A stretch of DNA of 64,000 nt, taken from positions 868,001-932,000 of the forward strand of contig NZ_JALPRP010000001.1 in the NCBI RefSeq assembly GCF_023195915.1, in the 5' to 3' direction. Positions within the stretch are counted from its first letter, which is position 1. Every line of letters starts with the position of its first letter. Positions 13,740 through 42,444 of the stretch are shown piece by piece. The DNA is from Methanoculleus sp. 7T (GTDB lineage: Archaea > Halobacteriota > Methanomicrobia > Methanomicrobiales > Methanoculleaceae). The notes beneath the pieces were generated by a model that worked only from the letters and a program-made list of their open reading frames with translations, was not told where the DNA came from and did not search any database. The position numbers and the translations under genes are program-made.

Positions 13740-14520
13740 CCGCTGATTTTAGTGATATTGCACCCCGGGCACGGATTTCCCGTGGGCTGCGCATCTGGCG
13801 ATGCTCGAACGACGGGCGTGCCGTCCGCCGTACTGCGCATCTGGCGATGCTCGAGCTCCCGCCCTTCAGCCAGTCGCTTATCGCCATGAACTGCCCCCTT
13901 GGGGGCAGGGGCGGGGATTACGGGTACCGCCTTGCAAGAGACAGGGGAGGGGGAAACCCCCTCCCCGTCAGCCCCTCCCCCAAAGGGCGATAAACGCCAC
14001 GGTCCACTGCACGGGGACAAGTCGGGCGGGGGAAGGACCGGGTCCGGGCCATCCCTGCACTCCACCTGTGGCCCCGGTACGGCTTCCCACTGGGCTGCGC
14101 ACCTGGCGGTGCTCGTGCTCCTGCCCGTCGGCCAGTCGCATATCGCCACGCACGGCCCCCGCCCCCGGGGGGGCGGGGAATCGACGCTCCGGCAGGAGCG
14201 GAGTTTGAGCACCGAAGGTGCGAATCGTCGAGCGTAGTGAGCGTGAGAGGACCGAAGGTGCGATTGACGACTTCCCCTTCGGGGAAGGAGTCCGAACACC
14301 GTAGGTGTGAGTCGTCGACCGGCCGAAGGGCGGGAGCGTGAGAAACCCGAAGGGTTTCGAGTGAGGAGGCCGGAGGCCGGGCGGGGAATCGACTGCCGGA
14401 ACGTGCGATGGTTCGTAAGAACCGGAGCTTGAGCACCGAAGGTGCGAGGCAGGAGTTTGAGAAGACCGAAGGTCTTCGAGTGGGGGTTTGCAAGAAGTTT
14501 CCATTGGTGCGGGGAGGGGA
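13740..14520. repeat. Cluster of GC-rich palindromic repeat elements (main copy)
   Basis: Nearly the whole 13622-14602 gap is repeat. It contains two copies of a unit gctgcgcatctggcgatgct / gctgcgcacctggcggtgct (13788 on, 13831 on, 14092 on), each leading through cagtcgc..tatcgcca to a strong C/G hairpin (about 13890-13913 and 14154-14176). A run of small hairpins follows, with cores such as gagcaccgaaggtgcga and aaacccgaagggtttcgag (14200-14500). A block at about 13950-13982 carries a purine-rich motif (reverse strand ggggaggggctgacgggg) that recurs at 42257 and 51247. I see no real open reading frame. Related copies occur at 19787-19885, 34330-34560, 42225-42425 and 51235-51310. Confidence 0.8.
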
Positions 14521-14602
14521 GAACCCCTGCGCCATCTCCCATACTCGGCCTGCTGACATTTATCAGTCAAACCTATGGAAAATAGAGGTTCCCTGCCGGA
14601 GC

Positions 14603-15919
14603 CTATGCCCGAGGCGGGGCGTAGCGGAGGATCAAGTCGGTCGCCGCCCTGATATCCCGCCCCTGTTTCTTCGCTTCAGCGAGGTACGCGGAGTAGACCT
14701 CGTCGGTCACGAGCCGCAGCTGCGGGCGGAACATATCGGCGTGCATCATCAGGTCGAAGCACCGGGCCTCGCTCTCGGTCAGGTCAAGCGGCCGGTACTC
14801 CCCGGTGTGGGGGACGAACGCCGGGTTCTTCTCGCGAGGGGTTCTGACCACAAGGTCGGCAAGCGGCGTCCCGGGGATGGGCTCTGCGCTGCTCACGAAG
14901 ACGTCGTCGAGGCAGAGGTGGGCGATCAGGTCTTTTGTCGCCTCGTAGTCCCGCCCCGTCTCCCCGGGGTAGCCGACGATGAAACTTCCCGCAACCTTGA
15001 GGTTGTGCTCCCGGCACCGCTCCACAGCCTCCTCGACCTCCCGGACGGTCGCTCCCTTGCCCATCAGCCGGAGCACCCGGTCGCTCCCGGACTCGATGCC
15101 GAAGAAGACCCACCCGATGGTATACTGCCGGATGGCGTCCAGAACCTCGTCGGTGATGCAGTCCACGCGGATGTCCGGGGAGGAGACGTTCCGCGGCCCC
15201 ATCACCTCGGCCATCCCGCGGAGGAGGGCGACGAAGGCTTCCGGGTCCATCTTCCCGTCGCGGGAGCCGTAGAGCGACCCGGTCCCCCCCGAGACCGAGA
15301 GCCGCGTTGCCCCGCACGCCGCAAAAGCCTTGACCTCCTCGACGATGCTCGCGAGCGGGCGGCTCCGGACCGCCCGTCCGAAGAACCGTGGGACCTGACA
15401 GAAGGTGCATCCCCCGATGCACCCCCGGTGGGTCTCGATGTAGGCGCTCGCGCCCCGGATGCTCTGGCTCCCGATATCCTCTGGGATCAGGGGGAGTGGC
15501 CGGTCGATCGGCGCCGGGCGAGCGGGGGGCGTCACGACCGCCCGGCCGCCGTCGAGGAAGGCAATGCCGGGGAGGGCCTCCGAGACGCCCTCCTCGACGA
15601 GGCGGACCACCGTCTCCTCGCCCTCGCCGACCACCACCGCGTCGGGGGCGAGCTCCCCAAGCACCATCTCCGGCGCCGCAGAGACCGGTCCCCCCACGTA
15701 GACCGTCCCGCTCCGCTCGCGCTGGGCCCGGATCAGGTCCCGGATCGCGGGGTCGAGGAGGTGCTGGGTCGAGAAGAGGCTCGCAAGCAGGAGTGAGTCG
15801 GCCGGGACGGCGGCGGGTGTCCGGGTTAGGGTCACCCTGTGGCCTGCGTCGCGGAGGACGCCGCCGATCAGCATGGCGCCGTAGGTGTAGATGCCGGGGG
15901 AGAGGATCGTGATGTCCAT
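14603..15919 (-). CDS. B12-binding domain / radical SAM protein, MJ_1487-like family
   Basis: The 438-residue protein has an N-terminal cobalamin-binding-like fold (about 1-135; VYVGGPVSAAPE, ELAPDAVVVGEGE) and a radical SAM core whose cluster motif is CIGGCTFC (about 168-175), followed by QVPRFFGR. SAM-site elements include SVSGGTGSLYG and GIESGSDRVLRLMGKG, then GSFIVGYPGE. The layout and the CxxxCxxCQVP motif match the archaeal TIGR04013-type family, whose reaction is unknown. The ATG follows a TATA-like ctatac by about 25 bases, so the transcript is probably leaderless. Its 3' side abuts the repeat cluster at 13740-14520. Confidence 0.8.
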   Translation of the reverse strand: MDITILSPGIYTYGAMLIGGVLRDAGHRVTLTRTPAAVPADSLLLASLFSTQHLLDPAIRDLIRAQRERSGTVYVGGPVSAAPEMVLGELAPDAVVVGEGEETVVRLVEEGVSEALPGIAFLDGGRAVVTPPARPAPIDRPLPLIPEDIGSQSIRGASAYIETHRGCIGGCTFCQVPRFFGRAVRSRPLASIVEEVKAFAACGATRLSVSGGTGSLYGSRDGKMDPEAFVALLRGMAEVMGPRNVSSPDIRVDCITDEVLDAIRQYTIGWVFFGIESGSDRVLRLMGKGATVREVEEAVERCREHNLKVAGSFIVGYPGETGRDYEATKDLIAHLCLDDVFVSSAEPIPGTPLADLVVRTPREKNPAFVPHTGEYRPLDLTESEARCFDLMMHADMFRPQLRLVTDEVYSAYLAEAKKQGRDIRAATDLILRYAPPRA

Positions 15920-15967
15920 GATAGGGTATCGGCGGAACAGTATAGAAATGGTGGGGCTCTCTCCGGG

Positions 15968-16645
15968 TCACACAGCCTTGGGCTGCTTGGACCGCCGGGC
16001 CTCGGCGACGGTGTGGCGGCCTCGGTCCGATGCGGCGATCAGCCGGAGTTGGAACCGCATGATATCGGCGATGACGGGCGGTGGGTTCCCCCCCAGCACC
16101 TCCTTGACCACGGCGCGAGCCTCCCGGAGCCTCCCCGCCCTGCGGAGCAGGTCCGCGAGGAGCGCCTCGTCGGCACCCTCCTGCACGGCAAGACGATCCC
16201 CCTGCCCCCACGCCCGGCGCAGGAGGTCGGCGGCACGTTTCCGGCAGATCCGAGCCGGCACGTCGTCTTCCTCGTCGTCGCAGACCCAAGCGGCGTGGAG
16301 GGAGGCCCATGCCGCTTGGGCCGGCGCACCGAGGTCCTCTTGGAGGATCGACCAGCAGAGGAAGGTGTTCGCTACCCTCGGAAACCTCCGGGCGTCGAGT
16401 TGCTCCCGGTAGCGCGGGAGTTTCACCACCTCGGCCGCCCCCTCCGGGGATTTGCCCGGGTCCGGTGCGCAGTAGCCGCAGGAAGGGCACCGTTTGACCC
16501 ATGCATAGATAGTAGACCGCAGGGGTTCCGGGGGGCGGGTATCGAGGTCTCGCGATCCGACCGAGCCCGTGGCCTCAGGGATAGTAAACCGGCAGGACTC
16601 GCCGCAGACTGCACAGGTGGTGCTGAGGTAACGAAGATGGGTCAT
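15968..16645 (-). CDS. DUF2225-like zinc-binding helical protein
   Basis: This 225-residue protein carries two CxxC pairs near the N-terminus (CAVCGESC at about 11-18 and CPSCGYCAPD at about 53-62) that form a likely zinc site. A helical, TPR-like remainder follows (FLCWSILQEDLG...AAWASLHAAWVC...LLRRAWGQ). This arrangement resembles the DUF2225 family. The function is unknown. An AT-rich TATA-like aatattatg about 25 bases before the ATG suggests a leaderless transcript. It is transcribed towards the radical SAM gene. Confidence 0.65.
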   Translation of the reverse strand: MTHLRYLSTTCAVCGESCRFTIPEATGSVGSRDLDTRPPEPLRSTIYAWVKRCPSCGYCAPDPGKSPEGAAEVVKLPRYREQLDARRFPRVANTFLCWSILQEDLGAPAQAAWASLHAAWVCDDEEDDVPARICRKRAADLLRRAWGQGDRLAVQEGADEALLADLLRRAGRLREARAVVKEVLGGNPPPVIADIMRFQLRLIAASDRGRHTVAEARRSKQPKAV

Positions 16646-16993
16646 TGATGGCCAGAATTACATAATATTCAATATATACTTTACCCAACATGGAAATGGC
16701 AGAAAGGATGGCCGGCAGGAACCTCTCTACCGGAACGGGTCGTGCGATGCATGACCGAGCCAACTCCCCCGCAGGGCACGCATAGGCCTTATCCCAAGGC
16801 GCCGCACCCCGGAGAGCCGAACTCCGGAGATCACGCTCAAGCCCGGATCTCTGCAACGATAGAGGGCAACGAACTTCCCTGGTTATTCCCGGTTCGCCCC
16901 AACGGGAAACCCTTAAGTATCCTCGATCCTCTACTCCACCTGCCTTGAGGGGGTATCCCCTTCGCAGGCGGAATACATTGGAGGCAGATACAA
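16646..16993. other. Divergent promoter region with leader hairpin
   Basis: This gap of about 350 bases separates the DUF2225-like gene from the first PRC-barrel gene. It holds AT-rich promoter sequence near 16655-16685 for the leftward gene and a TATA-like cttaagtat near 16912 for the rightward one. A nested hairpin lies at 16942-16969 (GCCT/AGGC outside, AGGGG/CCCCT inside), just before the ribosome binding site ggagg at about 16980. No gene is seen. Confidence 0.5.
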
Positions 16994-17800
16994 TTGGCTG
17001 AGAGACAAGCTGGGTCGGTGCTGGAGACCAGGCCGAGACCGGAAGAGACAGCAGGTCTGATGCGCATAAGCGACATCAGGGACGTCAAGGTAAGGAACCC
17101 GGAAGGAGAAGAACTCGGCGACCTCACCGATCTTGCGATCGACCGGGAGAGCGGCTGCATCGCCTATGCCGTACTCTCTTACGGCGGGATCCTCGGGTTC
17201 GGCGAGAAACACTTTGCCGTCCCCTGGGAGGCGGTCCGTAGTCACCCCGGGGAGAGGGTCTTTGTCGTGGATGCGGATAAGCGAACCCTTGATAGCGCTC
17301 CCGGTTTTGCCAGGGATGCGATGCCCCGGGAAGGAGACTGGAGCCTGATCAGGACGCTTCCGCCGCCGAGCGGGGAGAGGGGCCCTCCGCCGTCGCGGGA
17401 GGAGAAGCCGGCCGAGACCAAGTTACCCGGAGCAGAGAGGAACCTCCCGCCGCAACCGGCCGTCCAGACGGTCGCGGGCGGGTGGGGAGGACAACCGACA
17501 AGGCGGCGGACCGAAGAACGGCCGGTCGAGGCGGAGGCACGACCCCGAGAGACCGTCGTGGAGGAGGTCCACGAGGAGCCGGCCAGAGCCAGGGCGGTGC
17601 CGCCGTCTGCACGCCTCTCCGCCGCCGATCTGCAGGTTTACCTCAAGGGGATGGACTATCCTGCAGAAAAACAGGACTTGATCAGCCATGCGCGGGGGCA
17701 AAACGCTCCGGAAGACGTGATCGCGACGCTCGAACAGTTCGGGGAGCGGACCTACCGGTCGGCCGCCGATGTGAGCGTGGAGTTCGGCAGGGTTAAGTGA
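16994..17800 (+). CDS. PRC-barrel / DUF2795 domain protein, first of a tandem pair
   Basis: Residues 23-115 form a PRC-barrel (VKVRNPEGEELGDLTDLAID, YAVLSYGGILGFGEKHFAVPWEAV), a small beta-barrel found in photosynthetic reaction centres and RNA-processing proteins. A proline/charge-rich disordered linker (about 118-200) follows. The C-terminus is a DUF2795 domain (LSAADLQVYLKGMDYPAEKQDLISHARGQNAPEDVI, about 208-243). I chose the TTG at 16994 because ggagg sits nine bases upstream and because the paralog downstream also starts MAE. An ATG at 17060 is an alternative. The protein has no signal peptide. Its role is unknown; stress-related function is only a guess from family distribution. Confidence 0.8.
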   Translation: MAERQAGSVLETRPRPEETAGLMRISDIRDVKVRNPEGEELGDLTDLAIDRESGCIAYAVLSYGGILGFGEKHFAVPWEAVRSHPGERVFVVDADKRTLDSAPGFARDAMPREGDWSLIRTLPPPSGERGPPPSREEKPAETKLPGAERNLPPQPAVQTVAGGWGGQPTRRRTEERPVEAEARPRETVVEEVHEEPARARAVPPSARLSAADLQVYLKGMDYPAEKQDLISHARGQNAPEDVIATLEQFGERTYRSAADVSVEFGRVK

Positions 17801-17918
17801 GGGACGGGTCCCCCGCTGCGGGCGGCCGCAGGGCAAAGCCCTCCCCATCCTTACCCGAACGCTCGTTTTGCGGCTGAAACGCTCTCTCCGGCGTCAGGGT
17901 ACTCAAACCGGGGAAACG

Positions 17919-17972
17919 TTAAATAGTCACAATGCGCATCGCCCGCTCTGCGTGAAGGTGACGTTCACCTTC
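17919..17972 (+). promoter_or_regulatory. Promoter and leader hairpin of the second PRC-barrel gene
   Basis: TTAAATAG at 17919-17926 is a TATA box. About 28 bases on, where transcription should begin, lies a perfect eight-base inverted repeat, GAAGGTGA (17954-17961) and TCACCTTC (17965-17972), with a three-base loop. It could be an operator or an RNA hairpin at the 5' end of the message. The start codon follows 30 bases later. Confidence 0.55.
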
Positions 17973-18001
17973 GATTGCATACTTGGGAGAAGGTGGTTGT
18001 A

Positions 18002-18763
18002 ATGGCCGAAACAGTTCTGGAGCAGCAGATGCGGAGGACGGGAGAGCAGGAGTTCCTCTCGTCCGAGGATATCGTGGGGAAGCGTGTGAAGAACCCGGAA
18101 GGCTACGACCTCGGCGAGATCTCAAGCCTGCGGGTTGGTCTGCCTACGGGAAAAGTGGCATACGCGGTGCTCAGGGCCGGGGGCATGTTCGGCCTCGGGG
18201 CGAAGTTCTTCGCGGTCCCCGTCGAGGCGATGGTCTACCGGCCGGGGGACGACGTCTTTGTGGTGAACATCAGCAAGTATAAGATCGACAACGAGCCCGG
18301 CTTCACGGAGGGAGAGTGGCCTAGGGAAGCGAACTGGAACTTGATCGAGTCGACCCGTCCCATGGGCCCTCCGAGCCAGGAAGAGGCGCGGGCCGTGACC
18401 CGGACGGAGCCCCCGCCCCGCGAGGTCGTCACGACGGAGCGGGTGGAGGTGCGTGAGAAACCCGCCCACGAAGAAATGCCGATAAAGGCGGCAGAAGTGG
18501 AGCATAGGGCCACGGAGGCCCAGCCGATAACAGAGGCCGAACGCCCAGTTGCGGCCGGGGGCCCGTCCTTAAAGCACCTCTCCGCCGCCGACCTGCAGGT
18601 CTACCTCAAGGGAATGAACTACCCGGCGGGAAAACAGGACCTGATCAGCCATGCACGGGAGCAGAACGCCTCTGGGGACGTGATCGCGGCGCTCGAGCAG
18701 TTCAGCGAGAGGACCTATCAGTCAGCCGCCGACGTGAGCGAGGAGTTCGGCAAGATCAAGTAA
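18002..18763 (+). CDS. PRC-barrel / DUF2795 domain protein, second of a tandem pair
   Basis: This 253-residue paralog of the preceding gene has the same order: PRC-barrel (KRVKNPEGYDLGEISSLRVG, YAVLRAGGMFGLGAKFFAVPVEAM), a charged low-complexity linker, and a C-terminal DUF2795 domain that is almost identical to the first copy (LSAADLQVYLKGMNYPAGKQ). The ATG at 18002 has aaggtgg upstream; nine upstream codons in frame are not preceded by a site. The high identity of the C-terminal domains against divergent linkers suggests tandem duplication with selection on both ends. The gene has its own TATA box and leader hairpin. Confidence 0.82.
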   Translation: MAETVLEQQMRRTGEQEFLSSEDIVGKRVKNPEGYDLGEISSLRVGLPTGKVAYAVLRAGGMFGLGAKFFAVPVEAMVYRPGDDVFVVNISKYKIDNEPGFTEGEWPREANWNLIESTRPMGPPSQEEARAVTRTEPPPREVVTTERVEVREKPAHEEMPIKAAEVEHRATEAQPITEAERPVAAGGPSLKHLSAADLQVYLKGMNYPAGKQDLISHAREQNASGDVIAALEQFSERTYQSAADVSEEFGKIK

Positions 18764-18798
18764 CCCTTTTTTGCCGGCGATCCGGTCCTCCCGACCCC

Positions 18799-19977
18799 TC
18801 ACGAAAAGAGTTTGGCCTGAACCGTATCTTGCCCGCCGAACGTGACGTGCCGTCCGGCGGCTTTTCCCTTGATCCCGGCCCGCTTAAGGTCGGCGGGCCC
18901 GGTAAACGGCCTTTCTTTGCGCAGTGCGAGGATTCGATCCGCCCCCTTCGGCCCGATCCCGGGAACCCGGAGGAGGTCGCGGCGGGGGGCGAGATTGACG
19001 TTCACCGGTCCTCGGCAGGCTGCAAGAACCTCTTTCGGGTCGCGGTTTCCAAAGAATCCTTCTTCGTCGAGAGCCGCCCGGAGTTCATCGGCTCGAACGC
19101 CGTAGTCCCGGAGCAGGTAGTCGGCTTGGTACCACCGCCGCGCCCGCCATGCCGGGGTATCGGGGTGCGATGCCAGGGGAGTGCCCGGCAGGGCTCGGAA
19201 CGCGGCAAAATATATCCGGGAGGGGCGGGTCCGGCGGTACTGGTCGGCGACGCAGGAGAGGATCTCCGCATCCGTCTCATCCGCCGCCCCGACCACGATC
19301 TGGGTGGTGTGCCGGTCGGGTTTCTCTTCCGCCACCCAGTCTTGGCGCTTCAGGATATCCTGCCGGTAGTCCTTCACCCCGGCGATACTCCCGAGGCGGT
19401 CGGGGGACGTCGCCTCGAGGTTGATGCTGATCCGGTCCGCCACCAGCGCTGCGTCATGGATATCGGCCCGAGCGGCACCGGGGAGGATCTTGAGGTGGAG
19501 ATAGCCGTCGTAGCCCCGCTTCCGGAGGATCTCCCCGGTCTCCACGATATCGTGCATAACCACATCGACGTCCTGCGGGATCCCGGAACTCAGGAAGAGC
19601 CCGCCGACGAGTCCCTCCCGCCAGAGGCGAAGGTAGGTCCCGGCGAGTTCCTCGGGAGAGAAACTCAGTCGCTCCCGCTGCAGGCGGACGGCGCAGTAGG
19701 CGCAGTCGTAGGAACAGGTCCCGTGGAGGAGGACCTTGAACATCCGCCCGCACCCGCCCGCCCGGGGGTTGTAGGTGATGCAGGGTGCGACTGCCGGAAC
19801 GTGCGATGGTTCTTGTAAGCACCGGAGCTTGAGCACCGCTAGGTGCGAGGCAGGAGCGTGCGAAAACCCTCGGGTTTCGGGTGCGGCCGAGAGGAGCCGG
19901 ATGCACTCCCCCGGGCTGCAGAGGTCGAACCTCCCGGCAGCGGTAAGGCGAGTGAGTTTCTGCTCCTGTATCGACAT
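18799..19977 (-). CDS. Radical SAM protein with C-terminal helix-hairpin-helix, carrying an in-frame repeat insertion
   Basis: The 392-residue protein matches the family annotated as putative DNA modification/repair radical SAM proteins. The cluster motif is CSYDCAYC (Cys88, 92, 95), followed by GLFLSSGIP, GYLHLKILPGA and SINLEATSPDRL. The C-terminus (about 320-375) has helix-hairpin-helix DNA-binding elements (LLRVPGIGPKGADRIL, LKRAGIKGKAA). I use the ATG at 19977 (MSIQEQKL) rather than the frame's far-upstream codon. Residues about 34-64, between LLSAAPE and VAPCITYN, are encoded by a copy of the dispersed palindromic repeat (19787-19885). They do not look like the rest of the protein and are probably an insertion that kept the frame. 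The substrate is unknown. Confidence 0.82.
   Translation of the reverse strand: MSIQEQKLTRLTAAGRFDLCSPGECIRLLSAAPETRGFSHAPASHLAVLKLRCLQEPSHVPAVAPCITYNPRAGGCGRMFKVLLHGTCSYDCAYCAVRLQRERLSFSPEELAGTYLRLWREGLVGGLFLSSGIPQDVDVVMHDIVETGEILRKRGYDGYLHLKILPGAARADIHDAALVADRISINLEATSPDRLGSIAGVKDYRQDILKRQDWVAEEKPDRHTTQIVVGAADETDAEILSCVADQYRRTRPSRIYFAAFRALPGTPLASHPDTPAWRARRWYQADYLLRDYGVRADELRAALDEEGFFGNRDPKEVLAACRGPVNVNLAPRRDLLRVPGIGPKGADRILALRKERPFTGPADLKRAGIKGKAAGRHVTFGGQDTVQAKLFS
19787..19885. repeat. Copy of the dispersed palindromic repeat inside a coding sequence
   Basis: On the plus strand this stretch starts gcgactgccggaacgtgcga, continues through accggagcttgagcaccg and ggtgcgaggcaggag, and ends in a small hairpin aaaaccctcgggttt. 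It matches the intergenic copy at about 14390-14485 nearly base for base over its first 75 or so positions. The second small hairpin differs in sequence but keeps its pairing. It lies wholly inside the radical SAM/HhH gene and is read through without a stop. Confidence 0.85.
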
Positions 19978-20072
19978 GCCGGAAGCATCGGCCCACGGGA
20001 ACAAGAGCCTGCCGCCCGCGGGGCGAAAGTGTCCCCCTATACTGTACCCTAAAACACAATATCCATGCCAAT

Positions 20073-20094
20073 TATATATTGTGAACAATATATA
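20073..20094. promoter_or_regulatory. 22-base palindromic promoter element upstream of ablB
   Basis: TATATATTGT and ACAATATATA form perfect ten-base arms around a two-base centre. The element overlaps the region where a TATA box would sit for the ATG at 20109 and lies in the 131-base divergent gap with the radical SAM gene. It may serve as a TATA element and an operator at once. Confidence 0.55.
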
Positions 20095-20108
20095 GTCTCA
20101 GGAACAGC

Positions 20109-21107
20109 ATGTTCGGTTCCTTACAAGACCACAAAAACAATATCTCCAGTACCGGTGCCGAAGCCGCCTCAACGCGGCATGCGGCAAAGAAAACTCTTTC
20201 TTCCGGACGGCTGCCCGGTCAGGGGGCATATAGCCCTCGAAAAGGCGCCTATGCCGACACTGTCGTGAGACTCGGGAAAAGCCTGATCCACCACGGTCCG
20301 TACAACGACCGAGTCTACCTCTTCCGCCTGAACCCAGCGGACCTTCCCGGGATAACCGGCCGGCTCCTCGCGCTCGCAAAAGACCGAGGCTACTCACGGA
20401 TATTCGCAAGGGTTCCGGCCCCCGCACGGGACCACTTCGTATCGTGCGGCTATACTCCCGGAGCACGCCTCCCGGGGTTGTTCCGCGGGAAGGTGGACGG
20501 CTACTACATGGCAAACTACCTTGACGCGCCTCAGGGCGACCGGGACGGGATCGATGAGGTCCTTACGGTTGCGCAGGAGAAGGCACGGCAGAATGCAGCG
20601 ATTCCGGTGCTCGAGCCCGAATTCACCTGCACTCCCGCCGCACCGACGGATGCCCCGGCGCTTGCGGCAATCTACCGGAACGTCTTTGCGACCTACCCGG
20701 TCCCCATCCATGACCCGCTCTACCTAGCGCGGGAGATGCAGGAGAACCTACGCTGCTTCTGCATCCGCACGGGCGGCCGGATCGCCTCGGTCGCCTCGGC
20801 GGCCGTGGACCCGGACGCACGGTTCGCGGAGATGACCGGTTTTGCGACGCTGCCCGAATATCGGGGCCGAGGATTTGCAGGCTATCTCCTGCGGCGAATG
20901 GAGACAGAGATGCGCTCGCTCGGGGTGAAGACCGTCTTCGCTATCGCCAGGGCCTGTTCGTACCCGGCAAACATCACCTTTGCCAGGACAGGCTACGCTT
21001 ACAGGGGGACGCTTCCCGAAAGCGTCAACATCTGCGGCTCGTTTGAGGACATGAACGTCTGGTGCAAGTCGATCGGCGGCGGAGAAGCAGCCTCCGTGCA
21101 GGGATGA
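20109..21107 (+). CDS. ablB: Putative beta-lysine N-acetyltransferase (AblB)
   Basis: This 332-residue protein matches the AblB family, which acetylates beta-lysine to make the compatible solute N-epsilon-acetyl-beta-lysine in salt-stressed methanogens. The N-terminal half is family-specific (DRVYLFRLNPADLPGITGRL, GYSRIFARVPA, GYTPGARLPGLFRGKVDGYYM). The C-terminal half (about 180-320) is a GNAT domain whose acetyl-CoA site shows FATLPEYRGRGFAGYLLRRM. Its usual partner ablA (lysine 2,3-aminomutase) is not adjacent and not in the window. The short distance from the palindromic promoter at 20073-20094 suggests a leaderless, regulated transcript, perhaps osmotically controlled; that is inference. 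Confidence 0.85.
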   Translation: MFGSLQDHKNNISSTGAEAASTRHAAKKTLSSGRLPGQGAYSPRKGAYADTVVRLGKSLIHHGPYNDRVYLFRLNPADLPGITGRLLALAKDRGYSRIFARVPAPARDHFVSCGYTPGARLPGLFRGKVDGYYMANYLDAPQGDRDGIDEVLTVAQEKARQNAAIPVLEPEFTCTPAAPTDAPALAAIYRNVFATYPVPIHDPLYLAREMQENLRCFCIRTGGRIASVASAAVDPDARFAEMTGFATLPEYRGRGFAGYLLRRMETEMRSLGVKTVFAIARACSYPANITFARTGYAYRGTLPESVNICGSFEDMNVWCKSIGGGEAASVQG

Positions 21108-42224: not shown

Positions 42225-42425
42225 CTGGACACGGCTTCTCACTGGGTATCGTGCTTGGGGAGGGGCTGACGGGGAGGGGGCTCGCCCCCTCGCAACCTCG
42301 CAGTGCGACGTTCCTCTGGAACGGAGCTCGAGCACCGTTAGGGTATCGCCATGACTGTCCCCGCCCCAGGGGCGGGGAATTGACTGCCGGTAGAAGCGGA
42401 GTTTGAGCACCGCGAGGCTGCGTAG
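42225..42425. repeat. Copy of the dispersed palindromic repeat (in a 396-base gap)
   Basis: Downstream of the second moeA, the stretch contains ggggaggggctgacggggag (42257 on), atcgccatgactg leading to the hairpin ccccgccccaggggcgggg (about 42360-42379), then attgactgccgg, agcggagtttgagcaccg and a small hairpin. The order matches the cluster at 13740-14520. A T-rich stretch (ctatttt..attttttt, about 42081-42098) just before it probably ends moeA transcription. No gene is seen in 42049-42444. Confidence 0.7.
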
Positions 42426-42444
42426 AACGCCCCGGCCGCACCCC

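Follow-up and report, generated by a model that had tools for sequence, protein, structure and literature searches.

REP and BIME sequences are strand-asymmetric hairpins that are scattered between genes and moved by RAYT (Y1) transposases. The element described here is likewise a strand-asymmetric hairpin sequence dispersed between genes; unlike the REP/RAYT system, its genome lacks PF01797, and the Y1 family occurs mostly in relatives that are poor in repeats. Enterobacterial small mobile sequences of the RU/ERIC type are mainly intergenic and MITE-like, contain open frames, and occasionally become parts of proteins (PMC2759123). The present element shares with them the mainly intergenic units, the open frames and the occasional capture into proteins, whereas it is archaeal and consists of a hairpin chain with a three-way junction. 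Rickettsia palindromic elements (RPEs; Ogata et al. 2000, 2002) are short palindromic repeats that occur between genes and also in frame within genes, to which they add a peptide segment, and nearly half of the 44 RPEs of R. conorii sit in genes (PMC10969869). Both contexts were observed here, with an intergenic copy at position 14,390 and a coding copy at position 19,787 of the window, the whole 64,000-nucleotide stretch of Methanoculleus sp. 7T DNA that was analysed. In contrast to RPEs, which occupy many unrelated host genes, only one of 56 checked clusters of the repeat was coding, and repeated insertion concerns a single codon in one gene. The host is moreover an archaeon, and the comparison with RPEs is one of description. 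The element works in an RPE-like manner at one site, without the RPE feature of many host genes. No archaeal counterpart of a gene-captured palindromic repeat, and no report on Methanoculleus repeats, was found in the literature searched, most subscription journals lying outside its coverage.

The features of the locus are as follows.

18,802 to 19,977, minus strand: radical SAM plus helix-hairpin-helix (HhH) gene encoding 392 amino acids (Pfam and TIGR03916 matches).
19,783 to 19,878, minus strand: in-frame insert of 96 bp, corresponding to residues 34-65, ETRGFSHAPASHLAVLKLRCLQEPSHVPAVAP (alignment to the empty ortholog L036).
19,788 to 19,886, plus strand (the GA strand, on which the element is structured and which is antisense to the gene): copy of the repeat element inside the gene (alignment and folding).
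14,386 to 14,490, plus strand: full dispersed copy with a three-way junction and one hairpin, intergenic (alignment and folding).
14,190 to 14,495, plus strand: array of related hairpin modules, 306 bp, intergenic (68 genome matches).
42,319 to 42,443, strand not given: additional short stretches that match these modules (search within the window).

The host protein matched PF04055 (Radical_SAM, E = 6e-9) and PF12836 (HHH_3, E = 1e-6) in Pfam. Its nearest named family was TIGR03916 (rSAM_link_UDG), with about 193.5 bits against a cut-off of 343.5, and by this score the protein, which misses the family cut-off, appears to be only a distant relative. An ortholog search with the host gene gave matches in 48 relatives. 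The gene was intact, with its domains preserved and a dN/dS of 0.11-0.17 (about 0.12); it is therefore under purifying selection and is not a pseudogene, the alternative that had been set against the original prediction. The closest solved structures were radical SAM enzymes, e.g., HydE and biotin synthase. AlphaFold modelling of the window protein with 46 sequences gave a mean pLDDT of 82.7 and a confident core, and the pLDDT fell below 50 only at residues 32-62, a predicted disordered loop, and at the C-terminus. Beta strands were modelled at residues 25-28 and 66-69, on either side of this low-confidence loop, which suggests that the insert probably lengthens a beta-hairpin turn and would leave the radical SAM core untouched.

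Compared with the empty ortholog L036, the window gene contained exactly 96 additional bases (32 codons), and the frame remained open; the insertion and its reading frame are thus observed directly. The original prediction had placed a repeat in frame inside this gene at about residues 34-64. The in-frame insertion was borne out, and the range was corrected to residues 34-65. Within the window, BLAST aligned the gene copy to the intergenic sequence at 14,390-14,455 over 69 bp with 92.8% identity (E = 3e-23), and a gapped local alignment of the two copies spanned 99 columns. Its best match in the 2.6-Mb genome was 14,390-14,485 (84% over 99 bp, E = 1e-22), followed by C2:167615-167720 (79%, E = 1e-18). 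Relative to the 14,390 copy, it carries changes of +2 and +1 bases in two loops, which cancel modulo 3. A fortuitous match or an assembly error finds no support beyond the GC-rich, low-diversity sequence and is scarcely credible in view of this genome-wide E value, the 2-Mb contig, and a similar insert in the independent genome G007. The window insert was 84-88% like the dispersed copies versus 77% like the in-gene insert of G007. Identical copies of a 7-bp direct repeat, CGCACCC, flank the 96-bp insert, whereas the empty site of L036, which reads GGCCGCACCCTGC, has a single copy; because of this repeat, the placement of the insert is ambiguous by 7 bp. In 19 of 26 element copies TCGCAC was present at the corresponding edge, and the 7-bp repeat may therefore represent the element's own sequence plus microhomology instead of a target-site duplication.

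The element unit is about 90 bp long and forms a hairpin chain with a three-way junction. Three dispersed copies folded into a three-way junction and one hairpin with z scores of -3.2 to -4.0, whereas the fold of the gene copy was decayed (z = -0.9). The closing stem covaries: at least 5 pairs were formed in 48% of 21 copies versus 12% when the arms were swapped between copies. GA was present on both flanks of 139 of 1969 hairpins (stems of 5-9 bp, strand opposite the host gene) in source sequences partly picked for containing the element, and no flank pair was commoner than GA/GA and its mirror image, TC/TC. The hairpin loops were mostly GNA or GNNA. The GA/GA hairpins were also considered as k-turns, which is not claimed here because no closing C stem was visible by eye. 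Frames were open in 58 of 84 cases on the TC strand and in 26 of 84 on the GA strand, a bias that would explain the single orientation of the coding inserts seen. Rfam covariance models gave no match at E <= 1 over positions 13,800-20,200, and a known structured RNA family was ruled out on this basis. A Y1 transposase was rejected as the mover of the repeat because PF01797 had no match in the window genome or in any of the 15 insert-bearing genomes. The Methanoculleus genome G020 has eighteen Y1 transposase matches and no repeat matches, the opposite of what Y1-driven movement would lead one to expect. Three overlapping matches of 130 bp to the array query, each offset by 92 bp, were found at G004:C1:262755-263068 and represent a head-to-tail tandem of units. 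Elsewhere in the same genome, a putative cofG, so recognised by eye, has an element array immediately upstream (L237, G004:C2:704306-704497), which extends the frame of this gene beyond its likely start.

A search of the species' own genome gave 80 matches in 57 clusters. A simple codon-score gene test with a strict threshold missed the window gene itself and was replaced by another test, by which one of the 56 checked clusters, that in the window gene, was clearly coding; one other cluster was marked by the test, its coding score being negative on one side. In addition, no further credible coding copy emerged when six genomes were searched in translation. These results indicate that colonisation of genes is not a general property of the family. 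Accordingly, the parallel with RPEs drawn in the original prediction holds for an in-frame repeat in a live gene but not for a gene-colonising family, and the further coding copies for which a genome search had been proposed did not come to light in these clusters or genomes.

The segment was absent from 15 of the 30 full Methanoculleus orthologs, which read straight through the site (e.g., LLSAAPCITYN), as well as from Methanoregula, G035 (another genus of the same family), and G059 (same order). The ortholog alignment proposed as a check on the insertion thus gave a gap in 15 congeners and in these three relatives, and no sequence with the same 30 residues and without the repeat was seen among the orthologs examined. 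With the site directly observed to be empty in 15 congeners and in all outgroups examined, this distribution indicates that its ancestral state is empty.

The other 15 of the 30 orthologs, including the window gene, had an insert of 24 to 54 residues at this codon, with borders and orientation common to all insert alleles. The best local scores against the element, compared with the shuffled maximum, were 117 versus 35 for the window, 98 versus 31 for G007, and 57 versus 35 for G004. Judged by this likeness, the window and G007 inserts are clearly element-derived and the G004 insert is partly so. The G030 insert keeps element-like parts, judged by eye. It is also the longest (L053, G030:C1:183351-184589), with 54 residues at the same site and extra module-like sequence. 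The inserts of the large clade gave single-sequence scores near the shuffled background and a consensus p of 0.19 versus codon shuffles, so that their origin from the element is unproven. Since different inserts occur at the same codon in related species, the site seems to have received inserts on more than one occasion in the genus.

The gene tree, for which the insert was left out, rejected a common clade of all insert bearers (p-AU = 1.5e-69; 9e-4 without the window), and the window nested in it with the empty G029, G034 and G022. An independent EF-2 tree also rejected a single insert clade (p-AU = 3e-10) and grouped the window species with five empty species (support 100/99). That the insert bearers do not form one clade is therefore directly observed, and a separate insertion in the window lineage is the most economical reading. 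A single old insertion in the common ancestor of Methanoculleus, with many precise losses and with the window copy refreshed by intergenic gene conversion, would account for the shared borders and orientation and for the empty G025 within the insert clade, which looks like a precise loss. However, it calls for some six or more losses, each restoring the ancestral length exactly, the window flanks keep the residues of their own lineage (SAAP and CITYN), and both 7-bp repeat copies match the empty sister L036; we consider it unlikely. Passage of an insert allele between species by homologous recombination, followed by reshaping, would also fit the identical borders, and G016 is placed differently by the gene tree and the EF-2 tree. 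The residues beside the window insert are, however, those of its own clade, so that any transferred tract would have been nearly insert-only, and such a transfer seems quite improbable. Insert-bearing genomes were richer in repeat matches (Mann-Whitney p = 2e-4), a comparison that is not phylogenetically valid because the supported branches offer only some three independent pairs; repeat abundance was therefore dropped as a predictor of the insert.

In ten species of the large clade, the length of the segment was constant and its EILPVPL core was conserved. The dN/dS of this segment was 0.51 (bootstrap 0.26-1.02; 3% of resamples reach 1) versus 0.15 for the rest of the gene, and by these values it has persisted under weak constraint. 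The constant length, the core and the dN/dS would be in line with an adaptive new part of the enzyme. On the other hand, the constraint is three to four times weaker than in the rest of the gene, the window segment is predicted to be disordered, the sequences vary among lineages, and half of the species do without the segment; an adaptive role is thus very doubtful. G025 is nested within the large insert clade and its site is empty, which suggests a precise loss of the segment. Its genome is nearly repeat-free (4 matches) among repeat-rich ones, with an empty site in the host gene (L052, G025:C318), as if the repeats had been lost genome-wide.

Taken together, it is probable that one dispersed-repeat unit entered the gene in the lineage of this species and that the same codon was entered at least one more time within Methanoculleus. 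A hairpin-repeat unit of about 90 bp would have been copied into the beta-hairpin turn of the radical SAM/HhH gene, joining at the sequence CGCACCC (GGGTGCG), which is similar to the TCGCAC/GTGCGA linker of the element itself, and the route of entry may have been microhomology or target duplication. The mostly stop-free strand of the insert is the coding strand and, 96 bp being a multiple of three, the gene stayed open. It thereby gained, before the radical SAM core, a disordered loop of 32 residues, which the enzyme appears to tolerate, and lineages would afterwards keep, reshape or lose the segment. We raise only tentatively a broader possibility, namely that a previously undescribed class of archaeal structured mobile repeats, in which hairpins with GA/GA flanks and GNA loops form chains and a three-way junction covaries, has a preferred coding site at which it integrates time and again via the GTGCG linker, and that one clade maintains the segment as part of the enzyme.

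From bacteria it is already known that palindromic repeats can be captured in frame and become segments of proteins, and the present locus is a clear archaeal case. With an ancestral state that is empty and an inserted copy that still matches its intergenic relatives at 93% over 69 bp, it provides a young example of raw repeat DNA turned into protein. Because old, young, shortened and lost states are found at one codon across 30 species, the fate of such segments is directly testable.
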